Assembly (NCBI GenBank): GCA_016926255.1 | Contig: JAFGOY010000055.1 | Span: forward strand, 1-64,000 | Direction of reading: 5' to 3' | DNA: 64,000 nt | Source: Anaerolineae bacterium | GTDB taxonomy: Bacteria > Chloroflexota > Anaerolineae > Aggregatilineales > UBA3940 | Shown: positions 36,276 to 45,460 of the stretch, piece after piece | Layout of the letters: each line of letters begins with the position of its first letter | How positions within the stretch are numbered: the first letter of the stretch is position 1 | Translations under genes and position numbers: made by a program | The notes under the pieces: model-generated | What the model was told of the DNA's origin: nothing | The model's input: the letters and a program-made list of their open reading frames with translations, nothing else | The model's database searches: none

Positions 36276-37130
36276 ATGGATTTTGGATCACTCTTTGCCT
36301 TCGTATACTTCGGCGCAATCGCCCTGTTTGTAGTGATTGTTATTGTCGCCGGTGTCCGCGTCGCGGCCAGGAAAAAGGCCGCTCAAAAACCATTGGTCGT
36401 TGATGGCGTCGAAATTTCTCCGCCGCGCCGAAATCCTGGCAGCCTGTCAGACGAGAAAATCATAGACGCCTACCGGAAAATGCCGATCCAGGTGCGTAAT
36501 TTCGGCTTTGTGCTGATTGGCCTCGCGATCTTCAACTCCTTTGTCTGGTTCAGTCAATTATTGATGATCGAGGAGTATCCCGGCCTGGCGATTGCGTTCC
36601 CGGCCAGCCTCGTTTTTCTGCTGAGCGGCGTGCTGGCGCTCTTCATCCGGGAACCGGCTTCGATGGGTCTGCTGTATCTTGTGTTTATCGCTGATTCGAT
36701 CCGCCAGTTCATTCTGTATCGCCAGAATTTCAATATATGGCAGTTGATTTCTATTATCATATGCTTGATGTTTTTTGTTTTCTTCCTGACCCAGCGCAAT
36801 ATTTTCTACGCCTACACCACCCTGCCGGAAGAGATGAAATCCGTCCCTGTAACGAACCGGGCTGATCGGGTTTTTCCAATCGTCAGTATCCTGTCGGGTG
36901 GTGCCAGTATATTTGTTGTACTGGCGGCAATTGTGCTGATGGTCGTGTTTGGCAGCGGCCCACTGATCGGCTCTGTATGGTTTGGCCTGTTTACCAGCCT
37001 GGGCCTGATATTGGGGATTTTTGCAGCAGCATTGGGCGCTTCCGGTCTATACTACGGGCTGAAGCAGCAGCGGGCACTTCTGATTATTGGCTTGCTGACC
37101 GGAGCCGTCTCGATCTATTTTCTATTCTGA
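36276..37130 (+). CDS. Polytopic membrane protein, unknown
   Basis: About 284 residues from ATG 36276 (GGGAGCG upstream); the longer frame runs back through mraY and is a shadow there. One N-terminal helix (FAFVYFGAIALFVVIVIVAGV), a short cytoplasmic stretch, then about six more helices, several Phe/Ile-rich. The final part resembles DUF4190-like helical hairpins (FPIVSILSGGASIFVVLAAI). Base composition is slightly more AT-rich than the neighbours. I do not recognise a function. The Ntn-hydrolase-like gene starts 47 bases downstream on the same strand. Confidence 0.65.
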   Translation: MDFGSLFAFVYFGAIALFVVIVIVAGVRVAARKKAAQKPLVVDGVEISPPRRNPGSLSDEKIIDAYRKMPIQVRNFGFVLIGLAIFNSFVWFSQLLMIEEYPGLAIAFPASLVFLLSGVLALFIREPASMGLLYLVFIADSIRQFILYRQNFNIWQLISIIICLMFFVFFLTQRNIFYAYTTLPEEMKSVPVTNRADRVFPIVSILSGGASIFVVLAAIVLMVVFGSGPLIGSVWFGLFTSLGLILGIFAAALGASGLYYGLKQQRALLIIGLLTGAVSIYFLF

Positions 37131-37177
37131 CGGCACCCCCTTTACGCTCGCGTACGCATCGAACTGAGGAGTCAACT

Positions 37178-37897
37178 ATGTCGTTCATAATTACACTTTA
37201 CGTCCGCGAGGGGATCGTCATGGCGAGCGACAGCCGCCTGATCCTCTCCGCCAAGCAGGTGCAGGAAGGCCGCGAGATCATCCAGTTCGGCGTCGGCCTT
37301 TCCGACTCAACCTACAAGACCTTCCTGACGTTGAACCATATCGGCATATCGTCGTTCGGCGCGCCGGAGGTGCAGGGTGTGCCGATCTCCGGCTATATCG
37401 AGTCCTTCATCAGCGACGAACTCTATCGCAACGACCTCCAGGTCGACGAGGTGCCCCAGGCATTGGTCGACTACTTCCGGCAGTTCGACGCTTCGCCCGA
37501 TTCGGGCTTCATCGTCGCCGGTTACAAACCCGGCGAATACGGGGCCGAACAGCATGTCTGGGAGGCGCTGATCAAGTCTGAGCGGGTGACCCGCCTGAAC
37601 AAGCCGGACAAGTGGGGAGCCTCGTGGCGCGGCGTCACCGACATCCTCACCCGGTTGATCATGCCCGTGTCGATCACCGCGCCTGACGAAGAACCCAAAC
37701 CGCTGCCTAACTACCCGGTGCAGTGGGGATTCTTCACCTTGCAAGACGCCATCGACTACGCCCAGTACGCCGTCCAGGTGACCATCGATACGATGCGCTT
37801 CCACCCGCGCCCCAAGACGGTCGGCGGCCCGGTTGACATCCTGGTGATCAAGCCGCAGGCGGCATTCTGGGTCAAGAATAAAGACCTGGAGGCATAA
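37178..37897 (+). CDS. Predicted proteasome-like Ntn hydrolase with Ser nucleophile
   Basis: About 239 residues; ATG 37178 has GAGGAG 7 bases upstream. After removal of Met, residue 1 would be Ser and the segment SFIITLYVREGIVMASDSR places Asp at position 17, the same spacing as Thr1-Asp17 in proteasome beta/HslV subunits. A later STYKTFLTLNHIGISSFGA matches the KxxxxxxxHIGIxxxG strand that carries the catalytic Lys, shifted by an insert of about 13 residues. This suggests a proteasome-fold N-terminal-nucleophile hydrolase of the cytoplasm. Substrate and assembly are unknown. It is followed 9 bases later by an FGE-fold gene, likely one operon. The match rests on motif spacing only. Confidence 0.55.
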   Translation: MSFIITLYVREGIVMASDSRLILSAKQVQEGREIIQFGVGLSDSTYKTFLTLNHIGISSFGAPEVQGVPISGYIESFISDELYRNDLQVDEVPQALVDYFRQFDASPDSGFIVAGYKPGEYGAEQHVWEALIKSERVTRLNKPDKWGASWRGVTDILTRLIMPVSITAPDEEPKPLPNYPVQWGFFTLQDAIDYAQYAVQVTIDTMRFHPRPKTVGGPVDILVIKPQAAFWVKNKDLEA

Positions 37898-37906
37898 GTT
37901 GCCGGC

Positions 37907-38665
37907 ATGGTTCAAAACCAACCCTTTATCGACAATACCCTTCTCCCGCCCCCGTTCGAGTGGATCGCGATCCCCGGCGGGCAGGTGACTCTCAAAGCGG
38001 GCGGCTACCTGCCCGAACCGGCCACCTTCGATGTCGCGCCCTTCGCCATCGGAAAGTACCCGATCACCAATCGGCAGTACGAATTGTTCATTGCGGCAGG
38101 CGGTTATGCGAATCAGGCGTGGTGGACTGTATCAGGCTGGAAGTTCCGGGAGCGCAATGGATGGATCGAGCCGCGTTTCTGGGGTCAGTCTGACTACGAT
38201 CATCCCGATGCGCCGGTAATCGGCGTGACCTGGTTCGAGGCGATGGCTTACTGCCGCTGGTTGAGTGCCGAATCGGGGCAGCCGGTCACTATCCCGACCG
38301 AGCAGCAGTGGCAGTGGGCAGCACAGGGCGACGATGGGCGGCTCTTCCCATGGGGCGATGTCGATCCAACGCCGGATATCTGCAACTGGGCGCGTCGATA
38401 TGACGGCACCGCACCGGTCACCGCGTACCCGGAAAACGTCAGCCCGTTCGGGGTGATGGATATGTGCGGGAACGTCTGGGAATGGTGCCGCACCGGTTGG
38501 GAGTCCGGCACCACCGATCTCGAAGGCAGCGAGCGGCGGATCGTGCGCGGCGGTAGCTGGGTCAATGACAGCCTGCTTAACCTGATGATCACGCTCCGGG
38601 ATGGACCGTATCCGGTCGATGGCTACCACCTGTGTGGATTTCGGATAGCGCTTCAAGCAGACTGA
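37907..38665 (+). CDS. FGE-sulfatase-domain protein without catalytic cysteines
   Basis: About 252 residues. Formylglycine-generating-enzyme (SUMF1) fold: FEWIAIPGGQVTL, KYPITNRQYELFIAAGGY, VIGVTWFEAMAYCRWLSAE, IPTEQQWQWAAQG, VMDMCGNVWEWC and RRIVRGGSWVNDSLLNLM, ending GFRIALQ. In true FGE the GGS motif region carries two copper-binding Cys; here that stretch is VNDSLLNLMITLRDG with no Cys, so sulfatase activation is unlikely. Such domains often serve as ligand-binding or scaffolding modules in Chloroflexota and cyanobacterial signalling systems. It probably shares a transcript with the Ntn-hydrolase-like gene. Confidence 0.83.
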   Translation: MVQNQPFIDNTLLPPPFEWIAIPGGQVTLKAGGYLPEPATFDVAPFAIGKYPITNRQYELFIAAGGYANQAWWTVSGWKFRERNGWIEPRFWGQSDYDHPDAPVIGVTWFEAMAYCRWLSAESGQPVTIPTEQQWQWAAQGDDGRLFPWGDVDPTPDICNWARRYDGTAPVTAYPENVSPFGVMDMCGNVWEWCRTGWESGTTDLEGSERRIVRGGSWVNDSLLNLMITLRDGPYPVDGYHLCGFRIALQAD

Positions 38666-39344: not shown

Positions 39345-41582
39345 ATGTACACCTGTGACATCTGTAGTTCATCAATGTCGTCTATCGCAAAAAAGGTTTC
39401 AGCCGACCAGATGCGTGCTGCCGTCCGGGCGGGCTACCGTCCGCCGGGCAGTTCCAGCCAGAGGATGAGCGAACTCGGAGTATCGACCGACGCTTTTCAT
39501 GCCCAATGGGTTCAGCAGGTGATGAGCGACAACACCGATTGGGGATTGTGCGCAGCCTGCGCTGCCCGTTTCGAACAATATGCCGGACAAGCCGGTATGT
39601 CCTCAGCCCCAGACAAGGCTGTCAGCACACAGGAAATCGAGGCGCTGCTCGCCAGGCTCAAGGATAATGATAAAGATGCCATCAGGGAAGTCGAGGAAAC
39701 GATTGTTGCAATCGGTGAACCTGCTGTAGAACCGCTCATTGCCATACTAAAAAGCGAGGATGTGCTGGCCAGTTTGTATGTCACCCCGATACTTGTTGGA
39801 ATTGGCGCGCCAGCCGTCGAGCCGCTCATTGATTTACTTGACGACCCCACTGCCCGTATACAGGTTGGGGTAATACTATTGAAGATCAGGGACGTAAGGG
39901 CTGTAAAGCCGCTCATTAAGTTGCTCGCGGGTGAATTGAGCATGGTGCGCGGCCAGTCTCTTCCAGAGTTAATCCAGTTCGGAGAGCCTGCGATAGCGCC
40001 ACTGTCAGAGCTGCTCGAAGATGAGGATCAAAACGTTCGCGCCCTTGCCGCTGAGGTGCTGGAAGGAATTCGTTCAGATAGCTCACATGTGTCTGTATCC
40101 GAAGGCAAGACCATCGTGTCACCTGATAAACAGCCGCCTCCCGGCAAAGAGTCCCAGAACAGCATGGCCACCAAAACGACCGGAACGTGTGATATCACCG
40201 GGAAAGAGGGGCCAGTTTACGAACTGCCGCTCTATAAGATCGAGCAGCCGAGGAGCGATGCTGATGAACTTGGCAAACTTACTATGGCTGGCCTGCAAAA
40301 GGTGAAAGTCAGTGAGTCGGTCATTGAGGAGTGCCGAGGTGAAGCTGGAAAAAACGGAGCGATAAAATCCGGAGGTGGACTTCTCGGCCTTGTATTACTG
40401 ATAATAGTTGCCAATAATCTGCCGGATGATTCCTGGTTAAATACAATAGTATGTATCTTATCACCAGTTCCCTTCGTCTTGGCCTTTATGGGGCTTCCCG
40501 GTTTGACTGCGCTGACAACTACAAGAGAAAAGTATCTCCAGATGAATCTTCTGGCTAAACAACTCACGCAGCTATCGGGTAAATATATGTACTACACCGA
40601 AGCGCTGCGTGAAGCCCGCCTCAAACGGCTGAAACGCCGGGTGAAGGTCGCACCTTCCCCATCTACCGGAGCAGCCGCAGAGATCGAAATTCAGACCGAA
40701 ATTCCCGATTCACCGGTTGCCGCCGAAACCCCGAAAGAGACTGTCGACGATCGGGTGGAGGAAGCCCCGGCTGCCGGTAAAGAAGACTCACAGGTTCAAC
40801 AGGAAAAGGCCGATACCCCGGCCCCGGACAGGAGCGGCGATCTACGTATCATCGAACGGCACATTGCTGATTTCAGGAAAACGGATGTCGATGCCCGGTG
40901 GAAGGCTGTCCAGGCCCTTGTCAAAATCGGGACTCCGGCAGTGGAACCGCTCATCGCCGCCCTTGAGGATGAAGATGAGAATGCACGCCGGAGTGCTGCT
41001 GAGACTCTGGGATACATTCGGGATGTGCGGGCTGTCGATCCGCTCATTGACACGATCAGGCATGAGGACACGGTTTTTGGTGGGATTGCGACTGCGGCCC
41101 TGGGAGACATCGGGGATGCACGGGCGGTTGAGCCGCTCATTGCTGTCCTTGACGATGAAAAGCTTCGAAGTTCGGCTTACAATGCCCTGGTCAAGATTGG
41201 CAGTGCGGCGGTCGAGCCGCTTGCTGCGGCCCTTCAGAGCAGGGATTGGAGTGTCCGGGAGACAGCGGCCAGAATACTGGGCCAGAGCAGGGATGCGCGG
41301 GCGGTCGAGCCGCTTATTGCTGCGCTCAAGGATCGAGATGAGGATGTTCGCCGTGAAGTCTATATCGCTTTGAAGAATATTGGCCGCCCTGCGGTCGAGC
41401 CGCTTATCGCTGTACTCAAGGATGGAGATAATCCGGTGCGGGTCAAGGCGATCTGTCTTTTAGCGGAGAACGAAGACCCTCGTGCGGTTCAGCCGCTTTT
41501 AGCCATGCTTGAGGATGAGGATGAGGAAGTTCGTCGGACAGCCGCCTTTTGCCTGAGAAAGATGGGACATGCACCACAATAA
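39345..41582 (+). CDS. HEAT-repeat protein with zinc ribbon and central membrane helices
   Basis: About 745 residues; AAGAGGAG precedes ATG 39345. N-terminal Cys motifs (CDICSSSM and CAACAARF) suggest a zinc ribbon. A first HEAT/PBS-lyase-like block (about 95-235, e.g. GAPAVEPLIDLLDD) is followed by a CDITGKEGPVYELP segment, two membrane helices (about 350-395), an acidic linker, and a second HEAT block of about eight repeats (about 515-745, e.g. DARAVEPLIAALKDRDEDVRR). Both HEAT blocks probably face the cytoplasm, acting as protein-binding scaffolds. It heads a same-strand set with the WD40 and second HEAT genes. Function unknown. Confidence 0.78.
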   Translation: MYTCDICSSSMSSIAKKVSADQMRAAVRAGYRPPGSSSQRMSELGVSTDAFHAQWVQQVMSDNTDWGLCAACAARFEQYAGQAGMSSAPDKAVSTQEIEALLARLKDNDKDAIREVEETIVAIGEPAVEPLIAILKSEDVLASLYVTPILVGIGAPAVEPLIDLLDDPTARIQVGVILLKIRDVRAVKPLIKLLAGELSMVRGQSLPELIQFGEPAIAPLSELLEDEDQNVRALAAEVLEGIRSDSSHVSVSEGKTIVSPDKQPPPGKESQNSMATKTTGTCDITGKEGPVYELPLYKIEQPRSDADELGKLTMAGLQKVKVSESVIEECRGEAGKNGAIKSGGGLLGLVLLIIVANNLPDDSWLNTIVCILSPVPFVLAFMGLPGLTALTTTREKYLQMNLLAKQLTQLSGKYMYYTEALREARLKRLKRRVKVAPSPSTGAAAEIEIQTEIPDSPVAAETPKETVDDRVEEAPAAGKEDSQVQQEKADTPAPDRSGDLRIIERHIADFRKTDVDARWKAVQALVKIGTPAVEPLIAALEDEDENARRSAAETLGYIRDVRAVDPLIDTIRHEDTVFGGIATAALGDIGDARAVEPLIAVLDDEKLRSSAYNALVKIGSAAVEPLAAALQSRDWSVRETAARILGQSRDARAVEPLIAALKDRDEDVRREVYIALKNIGRPAVEPLIAVLKDGDNPVRVKAICLLAENEDPRAVQPLLAMLEDEDEEVRRTAAFCLRKMGHAPQ

Positions 41583-41737
41583 GACACTCCTCCGAAAGAA
41601 CATCGGGGCAGCCTGTCGTTGCCAGAGAATCTGAAATACCTCGTGCAGGAATTGATATTGGCGAGGGGTATTTCGCGTTCACCAGCACAAGATGACCGGT
41701 AGGCTTTAACCTGTCATACGAAAGAGGAATTCCGAAA

Positions 41738-43462
41738 ATGAGTACAGACGACCGCTATAATTTGATTCATCGTGCCACTAGTTCTTTTATCGAGTCTCGG
41801 GACGAAATCGATCTGCTGCGGAGAATGATCCAGGAACCGGTCATGAACACGGAATCCTTCGTGATTACGGTTCAGGCGGCGATTTTAGCTGAGAATGCGG
41901 GAGTATTGCAGGGCAAGCTGATAAAACTCAAGGAACTGCAGAGCGAAGCTGGCACAACGATAGATAAGCTGGCGAAAGATGATCGCTACCGTGATGCCTG
42001 TGTCGCCCTCCTTGACTTCGATCCGAACGCAAATCCCAATCACGAACGCGAGGTGCCCGCCCTGGCAAAGCGTTACCCGGTGCTGTTATCGCAGGGTTTT
42101 GAAGATTTGTACGCCGACCTGGTTCGCTGCTTTCCGGGAACTGGCCTGCAAGTCCAGTTGATCTCCCGGCAGCTGCCGCTGCTCGATCCCGATTTGAAGC
42201 TGCCTGAGAGTTCGAAGGCCCCGGCAGATTCGATGCTGCCGGAGAAGAAAAACAAACTGCCTTCCTGGGGGTGGATTGGGATAGTCGGGGTCGCGGCGGT
42301 GTTGTGCATCGTCATTGCTGCTGCGATTTCGTCCCTGGGGAGCAAAGAGGGCAGCGCCGCGACTGCTTCGGAGCCTCTGGCGACCGAGGCCCCGGCGAAA
42401 ACTTCCACGCCAAGCGATACGCCGGAGCCGAACGAAGCCCCGGCGAGTACTCCCACACCAAGCGATACGCCGGAGCCGAGCGAAACCCCGGCGAGTACTC
42501 CCACACCAACCAATACACCGGAGCCGAGCGAAACCCCCACCCTGACCGCGACGCTGACTCTCACATCGATGCCGGTATCTGTCGAAGCCATTCTCTCCCT
42601 GGAAGGTCACACCAGCTTTGTGAGCAGCGTGGCTTTTTCGCCTGATGGTCACTATGCTCTATCAAGCTCTGGGGATAATACACTGCGGCTGTGGGATGTC
42701 GAGACTGGCGAACTGGTTCATGTACTGGAAGGCCATACTGGATTTGTAACCGATGCGGCTTTTTCGCCTGATGGTCACTATGCTCTATCGACCTCCGGGG
42801 ATAATACACTGCGGCTGTGGGATGTCGAGACCGGCGAGGAACTCCGCGTGATGGAGAATTTTGTCGGCGTGAGCAGTATAGATTTCTCGCCCGATGGCTG
42901 CTGTATCCTTTCCAACGGGCCGGATCAAACGCTGCGGCTGTGGGATATAGAGACCGGTGAGGAGATTCGCATCATGGAGGGCCATACTGATGATGTAGTC
43001 AGCGTGGCTTTCTCACCCGATGGTCAATACACGCTCTCCGGTTCGTGGGACAATACGCTGCGGCTGTGGGATGTAGAGACAGGTGAGACGGTACACGAAA
43101 TGAAGGGGCATACGGATGTTGTACGTGGTGTGGCTTTCTCGCCTGATGGCCGCTATGCTCTCTCCGGTTCGTGGGACAAAACGCTGCGGCTCTGGGACGT
43201 AGAGACAGGTGATATGGTGCGCGAGATGAGAGGCCATACCGATTTCGTGACTGCCGTGACCTTCTCGCCCGATGGCCGCTACGCGCTCTCCGGTTCGTAT
43301 GACAATACACTGCGGCTGTGGGATGTAGAGACGGGCGAGACGATCCGTGTGCTGAACGAACACACGGATGTCGTGCGTGCCGTGGCCTTTTCGCCGGATG
43401 GCCGCTATATCCTCTCCGGCTCGGATGATGAAACCGTGCGGCTGTGGGAACTAATTGATTAG
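41738..43462 (+). CDS. Membrane-anchored WD40 propeller protein
   Basis: About 574 residues. A helical N-terminal cytoplasmic domain (1-150, MSTDDRYNLIHRATSSFIES) of unknown type, possibly an effector-associated domain, precedes one membrane helix (about 184-205, GWIGIVGVAAVLCIVIAAAI), then a Thr/Pro-rich stalk with a 16-residue repeat (TPTPSDTPEPSETPAS), and a seven-bladed WD40 propeller (about 285-574; blades of the type VAFSPDGRYALSGS and LRLWDVETGE). The propeller should lie outside the cell. Blades are very alike at DNA level, suggesting recent amplification. A terminator follows. Partner genes are probably the flanking HEAT proteins. Confidence 0.8.
   Translation: MSTDDRYNLIHRATSSFIESRDEIDLLRRMIQEPVMNTESFVITVQAAILAENAGVLQGKLIKLKELQSEAGTTIDKLAKDDRYRDACVALLDFDPNANPNHEREVPALAKRYPVLLSQGFEDLYADLVRCFPGTGLQVQLISRQLPLLDPDLKLPESSKAPADSMLPEKKNKLPSWGWIGIVGVAAVLCIVIAAAISSLGSKEGSAATASEPLATEAPAKTSTPSDTPEPNEAPASTPTPSDTPEPSETPASTPTPTNTPEPSETPTLTATLTLTSMPVSVEAILSLEGHTSFVSSVAFSPDGHYALSSSGDNTLRLWDVETGELVHVLEGHTGFVTDAAFSPDGHYALSTSGDNTLRLWDVETGEELRVMENFVGVSSIDFSPDGCCILSNGPDQTLRLWDIETGEEIRIMEGHTDDVVSVAFSPDGQYTLSGSWDNTLRLWDVETGETVHEMKGHTDVVRGVAFSPDGRYALSGSWDKTLRLWDVETGDMVREMRGHTDFVTAVTFSPDGRYALSGSYDNTLRLWDVETGETIRVLNEHTDVVRAVAFSPDGRYILSGSDDETVRLWELID
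42401..42540 (+). repeat. 48-bp tandem repeat encoding the Thr/Pro stalk
   Basis: A unit beginning ACTCCCACACCAAGCGATAC and ending CCCCGGCGAGT recurs about 2.8 times, each unit coding for 16 residues. Copies differ by a few bases only. Confidence 0.75.
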
Positions 43463-43479
43463 CCGGTCTGGTTCGTTTG

Positions 43480-43518
43480 GAGGTGGAGGTTGTGGAGGTC
43501 TCCACCTCTTTCCTTTTC
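43480..43518 (+). terminator. Intrinsic terminator after the WD40 gene
   Basis: GAGGTGGAG pairs perfectly with CTCCACCTC and is followed by TTTCCTTTT. The rest of the 441-bp gap (43519-43903) shows no convincing gene. Confidence 0.75.
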
Positions 43519-43903
43519 CCCCGATCTGTATCCCGATTATCTCACCGGCGATTTTCCCCCACGCACGGATTGGCCCGCCGGGAGGGCGTTTCGACTTTGC
43601 ATCAGATAGTAAATGCGTCCCTTCGAAACCATTGACTCGCCTGTGGGGATTGTCTTACAATGCTTTTGGATTGGAGCGCCGGAAATCTCTTCACTGGCGG
43701 GAAGCCTTGGCAGCAGATCAAGATTTTCACAGCCGTACCGGCCTGATTGTTACCGCAGGACGGTATAGTCGGTTTTTGGTTATCGCGGGCAGGCATACGA
43801 GGTGTATTTCGCGTCAGCATCGCGAAGTAGAATCGGGGACGGATACCTTCACCTGTGAAGGGTTTTATCATTTATTCAAGCAAATTAATAGGGAGAGATA
43901 GCA

Positions 43904-45460
43904 ATGCCATTATTCGGGCCACCTAATATCGAGAAGATGAGAAAAAGGCGCGATATCAAAGGGTTGATCAAGGCGCTGGAGAACGAAGAGTCAGATATTC
44001 GCAAAGATGCAGCAGAAGCACTTGGCGAGATCGGTGACGAACGGGCAGTAGAACCACTCATCGCTGCCCTCAATGACCCGGAGACTGTTAATTACGCTGC
44101 CAAGTCCTTGGGCGAAATCGGTGATGCGCGGGCAGTGGAACCACTCATTGTTGCCCTCAAAGATCATAGTTCAGCGGCTGCCAGGGCCTTGGGCGAAATC
44201 GGTGATGCGCGGGCAGTGGAACCACTCATCGCTGTCTTCAGAATACAGTATGGTAAGTGGTGGGAAGAATCGGCTGCTGAGGCTCTGGTCGAATTCGGTA
44301 GTGTGGCAGTAGACCCACTCATCGCTGCCCTCAAAGATCAAGAGAGGAATGTCCGTGGGCGGGTTGCCGAAGTTCTGGGCAAAATCGGTGACGCACGGGC
44401 AGTCGAGTCGCTCATCGCTGCCCTCAGAGATGAGGATTTATGGGTCGGCATGCTGGCTGCCACGGCCTTGGGCGAAATCGGTGATGCGCGGGCAGTAGAC
44501 CCACTCAGCGCTGCCTTCAAAGAGGGTTTCTTAGGGGCAGCTGAGTTGGCTCTGATCAAGATCGGTAGTGCGGGAGACCCACTCATTGCTGCCCTCAAAG
44601 ATGAGGATTCCTCAAAACGCAAGTCGGCTGTCGAGCTTCTGGGCAAAATCGGTGATGTGCGGGCAGTGGAACCGCTCATCGCTGCCCTCAAAGATCAAGA
44701 GAGTAATGTCCGTATCGAGGTTGTCAGTTCCCTGGGCAAAATTGGTGATGCGCAGGCAGTGGAACCGCTCATCGCTGCCCTCAAAGATGATGACCGGAAT
44801 GTCCGTAGCCACGTTGCCGAAGCTCTGGGTAAAATCGGTGATGCGCGGGCAGTGGAACCGCTCATCGCTGCCCTCAAAGATCTAGAAAAGCTTGTCCGTA
44901 GCTGCGTTGCCGAAGCTCTGGGTAAAATCGGTGATGCACGGGCAGTGGAACCTCTTATTGCTGCCCTCAGATTCGGGGTCCGCAAGGAGGCTATCAAGTC
45001 CTTGGGCGAAATCGGTGATGCGCGGGCAGTGGAACCACTCATCGCTGCCCTCAAAGATGAGGATTCATTGGTCCGCAGGAAGGCTGCCGAAGCTCTCCAG
45101 CATTTTGGGGATCCACGCGCAATCAAAGCCCTGGAAGAAGTCAGAGAAAAAGAAGAAGAAAAAGCCAGAGAAAAAGCCAGAGAAAAAGAGGCGCTCAGCA
45201 AACTGGCTACAGATTGGGTGAATGAACTTTTGGCCATTGCCAGCTCTTATCCTGAGAGAGGGGTATGGGGTCGGAAAGAAGAACACAGGGTTAAAGAGAT
45301 CGGACGAGACATCAATGCCAGGGGTGGTATGGGCCTGATGCGGCAGATTCATGCCAGTTTTTCGGGGTGCCTGAAAGCCCGCAGCCCGCGAGCCTACCAG
45401 GAGGGATGGAGTCGCCATCTCGATAGTTTGTGGGACGGAATCGGGGACTGGCAGGGTTGA
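43904..45460 (+). CDS. HEAT-repeat protein
   Basis: About 518 residues with GGGAGAGAT before ATG 43904. Nearly the whole protein is a solenoid of about 13 HEAT/PBS-lyase-like repeats of 31 residues (consensus ALGEIGDARAVEPLIAALKD). A highly charged Lys/Glu helix follows (about 405-430), then a C-terminal domain of about 85 residues (LATDWVNELLAIASSYPERG) of unknown type. No membrane segment, so cytoplasmic; a protein-protein scaffold is likely. PBS-lyase-type proteins act on bilins, but no bilin biosynthesis gene is present and the repeats lack lyase-specific context. DNA copies of the repeat are almost identical, which suggests recent expansion. Confidence 0.8.
   Translation: MPLFGPPNIEKMRKRRDIKGLIKALENEESDIRKDAAEALGEIGDERAVEPLIAALNDPETVNYAAKSLGEIGDARAVEPLIVALKDHSSAAARALGEIGDARAVEPLIAVFRIQYGKWWEESAAEALVEFGSVAVDPLIAALKDQERNVRGRVAEVLGKIGDARAVESLIAALRDEDLWVGMLAATALGEIGDARAVDPLSAAFKEGFLGAAELALIKIGSAGDPLIAALKDEDSSKRKSAVELLGKIGDVRAVEPLIAALKDQESNVRIEVVSSLGKIGDAQAVEPLIAALKDDDRNVRSHVAEALGKIGDARAVEPLIAALKDLEKLVRSCVAEALGKIGDARAVEPLIAALRFGVRKEAIKSLGEIGDARAVEPLIAALKDEDSLVRRKAAEALQHFGDPRAIKALEEVREKEEEKAREKAREKEALSKLATDWVNELLAIASSYPERGVWGRKEEHRVKEIGRDINARGGMGLMRQIHASFSGCLKARSPRAYQEGWSRHLDSLWDGIGDWQG
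43964..45110 (+). repeat. 93-bp tandem coding repeats
   Basis: Units containing GATGCGCGGGCAGTGGAACC and CTCATCGCTGCCCTCAAAG recur about 13 times at roughly 93-bp spacing. Identity between neighbours is high at DNA level, so copy number could change by recombination. Confidence 0.8.

Follow-up and report, generated by a model that had tools for sequence, protein, structure and literature searches.

Introduction

The closest described counterparts of the protein analyzed here are found in the proteasome-like superfamily. Fuchs, Alva and Lupas (2021, PMC8665760) reported 22 new families of proteasome-like proteins, among them the PMI clusters (Proteasome homolog with Multiple Insertions), which are spread over bacteria and Euryarchaeota. 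As described there, PMI-2 to PMI-6 have an insertion between helices H3 and H4, propeptides are limited to the proteasome beta subunit and HslV, and the superfamily includes connectase, which is a ligase. Their account, as far as its description of the new families goes, gives no telling genome context for them. The study appears in the reference lists of PMC10936438 and PMC13022661.

The locus under study lies in a stretch of 64,000 nucleotides from the genome of an Anaerolineae bacterium of the phylum Chloroflexota, and this whole stretch is called here the window. The original prediction, made from the sequence, described a Ser-1 proteasome-like hydrolase followed by a gene for an FGE-fold protein. 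Our analysis leads us to consider the first protein as a likely stand-alone Ntn hydrolase of the proteasome-like superfamily, placed on its Anbu-like 'group II' side and having no dedicated FGE partner. The features of the locus are the following:

37167..37171, + strand: AGGAG ribosome-binding site, 6 nt 5' of the ATG (direct reading)
37178..37897, + strand: predicted proteasome-like Ser-1 Ntn hydrolase, 239 aa (AlphaFold2 model, fold search, family)
37181..37183, + strand: Ser codon, putative nucleophile (Ser1 once Met is removed; alignment)
37229..37231, + strand: Asp codon (Asp17; 53/53 alignment rows)
37238..37303, + strand: strand hairpin, residues 21-42, with the Asp17-Lys insert, at lower confidence (model)
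37316..37318, + strand: codon of the Lys33 equivalent (ORF residue 47, or Lys46 without the Met; 52/53 rows)
37661..37738, + strand: long H3-H4 loop, residues 162-187 (between model helices 155-161 and 188-206)
37907..38665, + strand: protein of 252 aa with an FGE-sulfatase domain (PF03781) that lacks the FGE Cys pair; considered an incidental neighbor

Homologs of the hydrolase and their distribution

Searches with the hydrolase gave no family match in NCBIfam at E up to 1 and nothing above cut-off in Pfam, where PF00227 in particular gave no match with an E of 1 or less. Of 301 genomes in the phylum, 68 match PF00227, but the window's genome does not. Among solved structures in the PDB, the single sequence had no significant match and a profile of 7 rows had sub-significant matches at most (best E of 0.48). 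As a counterpoint to our best explanation, the link of the single sequence to proteasome families is thus not significant.

Homologs of the hydrolase itself are found in 4 of the 61 genomes around the window's genome, its own included. In a survey of 400 genomes of the phylum, they were identified in 6 with the single sequence and in 25 with the 7-row profile. A scan of the GTDB species genomes confirmed none with the single sequence; with the profile it reported 161 relatives, from which 80 bacterial and archaeal loci were retained. Their hosts include Methanoregula, a Thermoplasmatales archaeon, Clostridia, Prevotellaceae and other Bacteroidota, Acidobacteriota, Caldisericota, and Chloroflexota. 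Two of the hosts, Prolixibacter bellariivorans (L059) and Profundicola chukchiensis (L060), can be cultivated. As read from these searches, the distribution of the family is sporadic. In a tree of 60 rows, the nearest relative (L019, 59% identity) groups with the window protein with support 100/97, amid rows of mixed phyla, and the Chloroflexota rows undergo 5 label changes, at least 3 of which are forced by well-supported branches. Transfer of the gene is likely, judging from the tree, although paralogy or wrong binning could mimic it.

A few family members depart from the common pattern. Three distant Chloroflexota homologs (L126, which is G137:C12, as well as G177:C3 and G093:C65) align with the profile only in their two terminal parts. 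As both parts fall in a single open frame (462-484 codons), the predicted fold would seem to be interrupted by a large insertion. At L017:10146-10966 (genome G075), the family member is split over two reading frames, which corresponds to a decayed gene or to an assembly error.

We also searched for the family among mobile elements and defense genes. A phage or plasmid gene was rejected: when 50,697 phage records and 72,556 plasmid records were searched with the single sequence by tblastn, no hit had an E of 0.001 or less. Two family loci, L169:2-691 (39% identical) and L170:6001-6789 (31%), are on putatively viral contigs from IMG/VR. PHROGs gave a single weak match (phrog_5990, E of 0.026). 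A defense system was likewise rejected, as neither the hydrolase nor the FGE-fold protein matched PADLOC at E up to 0.01.

Gene start and catalytic residues

The ORF at 37178-37897 on the + strand starts with MSFIITLYVREGIVMASDSR. Once Met is removed, Ser is residue 1 and Asp is residue 17. In the window this frame is open further 5', with 343 codons from stop to stop and an upstream ATG at 36977, so the window alone would allow a longer start and relatives are needed to place it. An in-frame stop lies at most 10 codons upstream of the matching start position in 53 of 78 family loci, a count that includes one fragment, L096. Of 79 family loci, 75 have Ser as residue 2, two have Thr, one has Ala, and one, the same fragment, has Asp. 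Because the frames are closed upstream in relatives, Ser is at the N-terminus of the hydrolase after the predicted removal of Met; the original prediction had named a true start further upstream as the finding that would speak against it. Met-Ser is a good substrate of Met aminopeptidase, and there is no space for a propeptide in the relatives. Hence, Met aminopeptidase would expose Ser1.

To assess conservation we used an alignment of 53 rows, made of the window protein and 52 of the 80 family loci, from which near-copies and truncated copies were excluded by hand. At the nucleophile position, 50 rows have Ser, two have Thr and one has Ala; Asp17 is found in all 53 and the Lys33 equivalent in 52. 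The conservation of these predicted triad residues is far beyond chance. This agrees with the Ser1 and Asp17 at proteasome/HslV spacing, and with the Lys33-like strand carrying an insert, that had been read from the ORF: the spacing from Asp to Lys is 29 residues in the hydrolase versus 16 in proteasome numbering (Asp17, Lys33). Gln-Asp-Ala at 189-191 is also kept in 53/53 rows. By its spacing, residue 61 is a possible equivalent of the oxyanion-hole Gly47; here 46 rows have Gly, 6 have Asp and one has Asn, a less uniform pattern than that of the triad and a point against our best explanation.

The exception at the nucleophile position comes from a Chloroflexaceae bin (L032:4810-5652), in which Ala replaces the nucleophile and Arg replaces the Lys, each unique among the 53 rows. 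This member may be a pseudoenzyme and has the look of a decayed copy. That both residues are missing together fits the idea that the two act jointly.

Predicted fold

The AlphaFold2 model built from the 53-row alignment has a pLDDT of 91.7 and a pTM of 0.88. Foldseek found 413 PDB matches at E of at most 0.001 (best 3.6e-8), and the best 50 of these 413 are 20S proteasome entries; as such entries fill the 50 matches listed, the absence of Anbu and HslV names there is no counter-evidence. In VIA-align, the 50 rows listed have Z of 20.0-21.0 against 20S beta subunits, for example 2.5 A over 182 residues, and Ser2 of the model superposes on the first residues of the beta chains, at the Thr1 position. 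We conclude with high confidence, on the strength of the model, that the 37178-37897 product has the fold of a proteasome beta subunit, where a fold unlike that of Ntn hydrolases would have contradicted the original prediction. The top match of the model among viral folds is a phage protein, A0A8S5LJV3.

The model includes helices H1-H2 (70-85 and 89-101), directly followed by a strand region. The insert between Asp17 and Lys is modeled as two strands, 21-29 and 32-42, with a pLDDT of 74 in the block 21-30 and 59 in the block 31-40. Helices H3 (155-161) and H4 (188-206) are joined by a loop of 26 residues, 162-187. The protein ends with a C-terminal strand (229-233) and has no helix beyond residue 206 in the model.

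Placement within the proteasome-like superfamily

We compared the family with other members of the superfamily using hhalign. Against eight PF00227-positive Chloroflexota proteins, a mixed set in which two members are Anbu-like by eye, the family profile scored 97.7% over nearly its full length (E of 2.4e-12, one comparison). The control, hydrolase family against FGE, gave 0.2%. The comparison with HslV, represented by a shallow alignment of ten HslV-like proteins from Chloroflexota, gave 0.3%. Three of the eight PF00227-positive loci (G222, G261 and G262) were already reached by the 7-row hydrolase profile, with E from 4e-5 to 6e-4. By profile comparison, this puts the family near the Anbu-like 'group II' homologs. 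The resemblance to Anbu lies in the near-full-length profile similarity to this mixed set and in the C-terminal strand ('VGGPxD' versus 'VGPPID'), whereas the long C-terminal helix H5 of Anbu is absent from the model and the insert before Lys is longer in the hydrolase than in Anbu. To the 20S proteasome beta subunit and HslV, the protein is similar in fold (Z of about 21 to 20S beta) and catalytic triad; unlike them, it has no propeptide, no PF00227 match, and a length of 239 aa with extra insertions.

Set against their published description (PMC8665760), we infer that the PMI clusters are the probable best fit for the hydrolase. As described there, these share with it the proteasome-like fold, the Ser/Thr1-Asp-Lys residues and the lack of a propeptide, and they resemble its family in being spread over bacteria and Euryarchaeota with no informative genome context. 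The H3/H4 insertion of PMI-2 to PMI-6 is matched by the 26-residue loop of the hydrolase. PMI-3 and PMI-4 are described with long pore-loop insertions, whereas the model has none. By the same description, the superfamily to which the hydrolase belongs has already been reported, and the family is not new in kind.

Connectase deserves separate consideration, since its reaction differs. If the hydrolase were a specific, connectase-like protein ligase or transpeptidase, the Ser1 acyl-enzyme would be passed to an amine and not to water. The two proteins share the superfamily, in which connectase stands as an example of a ligase (PMC8665760), a stand-alone gene, and an insert near the active site, which in the hydrolase is the modeled segment between Asp17 and Lys. 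In addition, residues 1-28 faintly match the Pfam connectase N-terminal domain (E of 0.18). Yet this match is far under the cut-off (11.8 bits versus 26.8) and spans only a strand motif that is superfamily-wide. The architecture is the reverse of the one described for connectase, which has a two-helix insertion between S3 and S4 and no H1-H2, whereas in the hydrolase the first two helices are present and the insert is a strand hairpin. We thus regard a ligase of this kind as very unlikely and keep the proteasome-like hydrolase as the preferred reading.

The downstream FGE-fold gene

The FGE-fold gene starts 9 bases after the stop codon of the hydrolase, on the same strand. Its product matches PF03781 with an E of 5.5e-45 (154.5 bits versus a cut-off of 23.3), and resembles FGE-sulfatase proteins (SUMF1/2, EgtB-like) by sequence matches in the PDB, where EgtB (9.1e-25) and SUMF2 (6e-19) rank first. 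The formylglycine-generating enzyme has a Cys pair after its RGGS motif. In the FGE-fold protein Cys is found at 116, 159, 187, 194 and 243, and only Cys 243 comes after RGGSW, which starts at residue 214. Hence, the Cys pair is absent, as had been noticed originally, and by that test of its sequence the protein differs from the enzymes of the group and is not an FGE enzyme.

The original prediction went further and suggested that the hydrolase may be recruited or regulated by the FGE-fold protein; the two genes would then form a functional system. Their arrangement, on one strand and so close together, speaks for it, and the loss of the Cys pair would suit a binding role. The survey of family neighborhoods gave the opposite picture. 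With phmmer, no FGE homolog was found among 3593 ORFs of at least 60 aa in about 895 kb of flanking DNA at the 80 family loci; for 68 of these, the flanks on both sides measure 1 kb or more. None was found either at 39 further, partly overlapping loci (222 kb), from which the window's own copy (L101) was excluded and among which L011 is on the same contig as L019. The positive control recovered 20/20 FGE stretches of the window's genome. The nearest hydrolase relative, L019, has other flanking genes, one of them for ribosomal protein L25, and no FGE. Conversely, genomes G013 and G017, which contain the two best relatives of the FGE-fold protein (61%), gave no match to the hydrolase at E up to 0.001. 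Published titles combining FGE-sulfatase and proteasome were unrelated, and those listed on Ntn hydrolases and conflict systems included none on such a pairing.

FGE domains are also abundant in the window's genome, with 32 matches, 31 of them over the cut-off. We estimate that, with about 29 FGE genes among some 4,000, a given downstream neighbor would be one by chance in less than 1% of cases, which is uncommon for one gene and unremarkable across a scan of many. The hydrolase-FGE system was therefore rejected, the pair being absent from every other family locus that was surveyed while the controls were recovered, and we consider recruitment or regulation by the FGE-fold protein extremely unlikely. 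The gene, one of many of its kind in the genome, seems to adjoin the hydrolase by chance, as judged from these sequence comparisons, and a shared transcript is possible given the distance and common direction. Elsewhere in the same genome, three FGE-sulfatase domains occur in a row (G000:C50:112710-115605).

Other neighboring genes

To search for other partners, we scanned 62 of the 80 loci, less than 90% alike, and retained 118 neighbor proteins, taken as ORFs of at least 90 aa picked by length and with no gene calling. Among the first 25 neighbor clusters, and among the 25 of 135 Pfam families listed, there was no partner common to all lineages, and the neighbors are lineage-bound. The commonest Pfam domains among the 118 proteins, within these 25 of 135 families, are those of S-adenosylhomocysteinase, with 8 members. 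In 11 Caldiserica/Caldisericum loci (L062, L064, L066, L068, L069 and L072-L077), a same-strand S-adenosylhomocysteinase gene lies upstream of the hydrolase, mostly less than 200 bases away. In the window, genes for HEAT-repeat, WD40-repeat and HEAT-repeat proteins follow in tandem downstream, at 39345-45460.

The metabolic setting in Caldisericota might indicate an amidase whose substrate is a small metabolite or a modified peptide and which would not degrade proteins. Against this, the fold matches listed are 20S beta subunits, and the metabolic neighbors vary by lineage and indicate no single substrate. There is accordingly only a slim chance that this is the function of the family.

Discussion

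The evidence above is best explained by a stand-alone proteasome-like hydrolase. In this protein, Ser1, aided by Lys46 and Asp17 (numbering without the Met), would attack an amide bond, as we infer from the conservation of the triad and from the fold. The enzyme would work with no dedicated FGE partner and probably with no dedicated AAA+ unfoldase, the latter suggested by the neighborhoods and by the description of the superfamily in PMC8665760. It would most likely be an ATP-independent peptidase acting on small, unfolded or specific protein substrates.

These results remove a spurious two-gene system of hydrolase and FGE-fold protein from consideration. They also assign a protein with no Pfam or NCBIfam match, and hence no annotation, to a superfamily in which hardly any function has been described for the prokaryotic branches. 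With 239 aa, a Met-Ser start and no propeptide, the hydrolase is a compact test protein for them. One may also consider a wider reading, doubtful and on the whole unlikely, in which the members of the family, shared by Euryarchaeota and many bacterial phyla, are Ser-1 enzymes that stand alone, have no propeptide, and act on a defined cellular protein by processing or ligating it. If true, this would add a third use of the proteasome fold to those known from the degrading barrel and from connectase.
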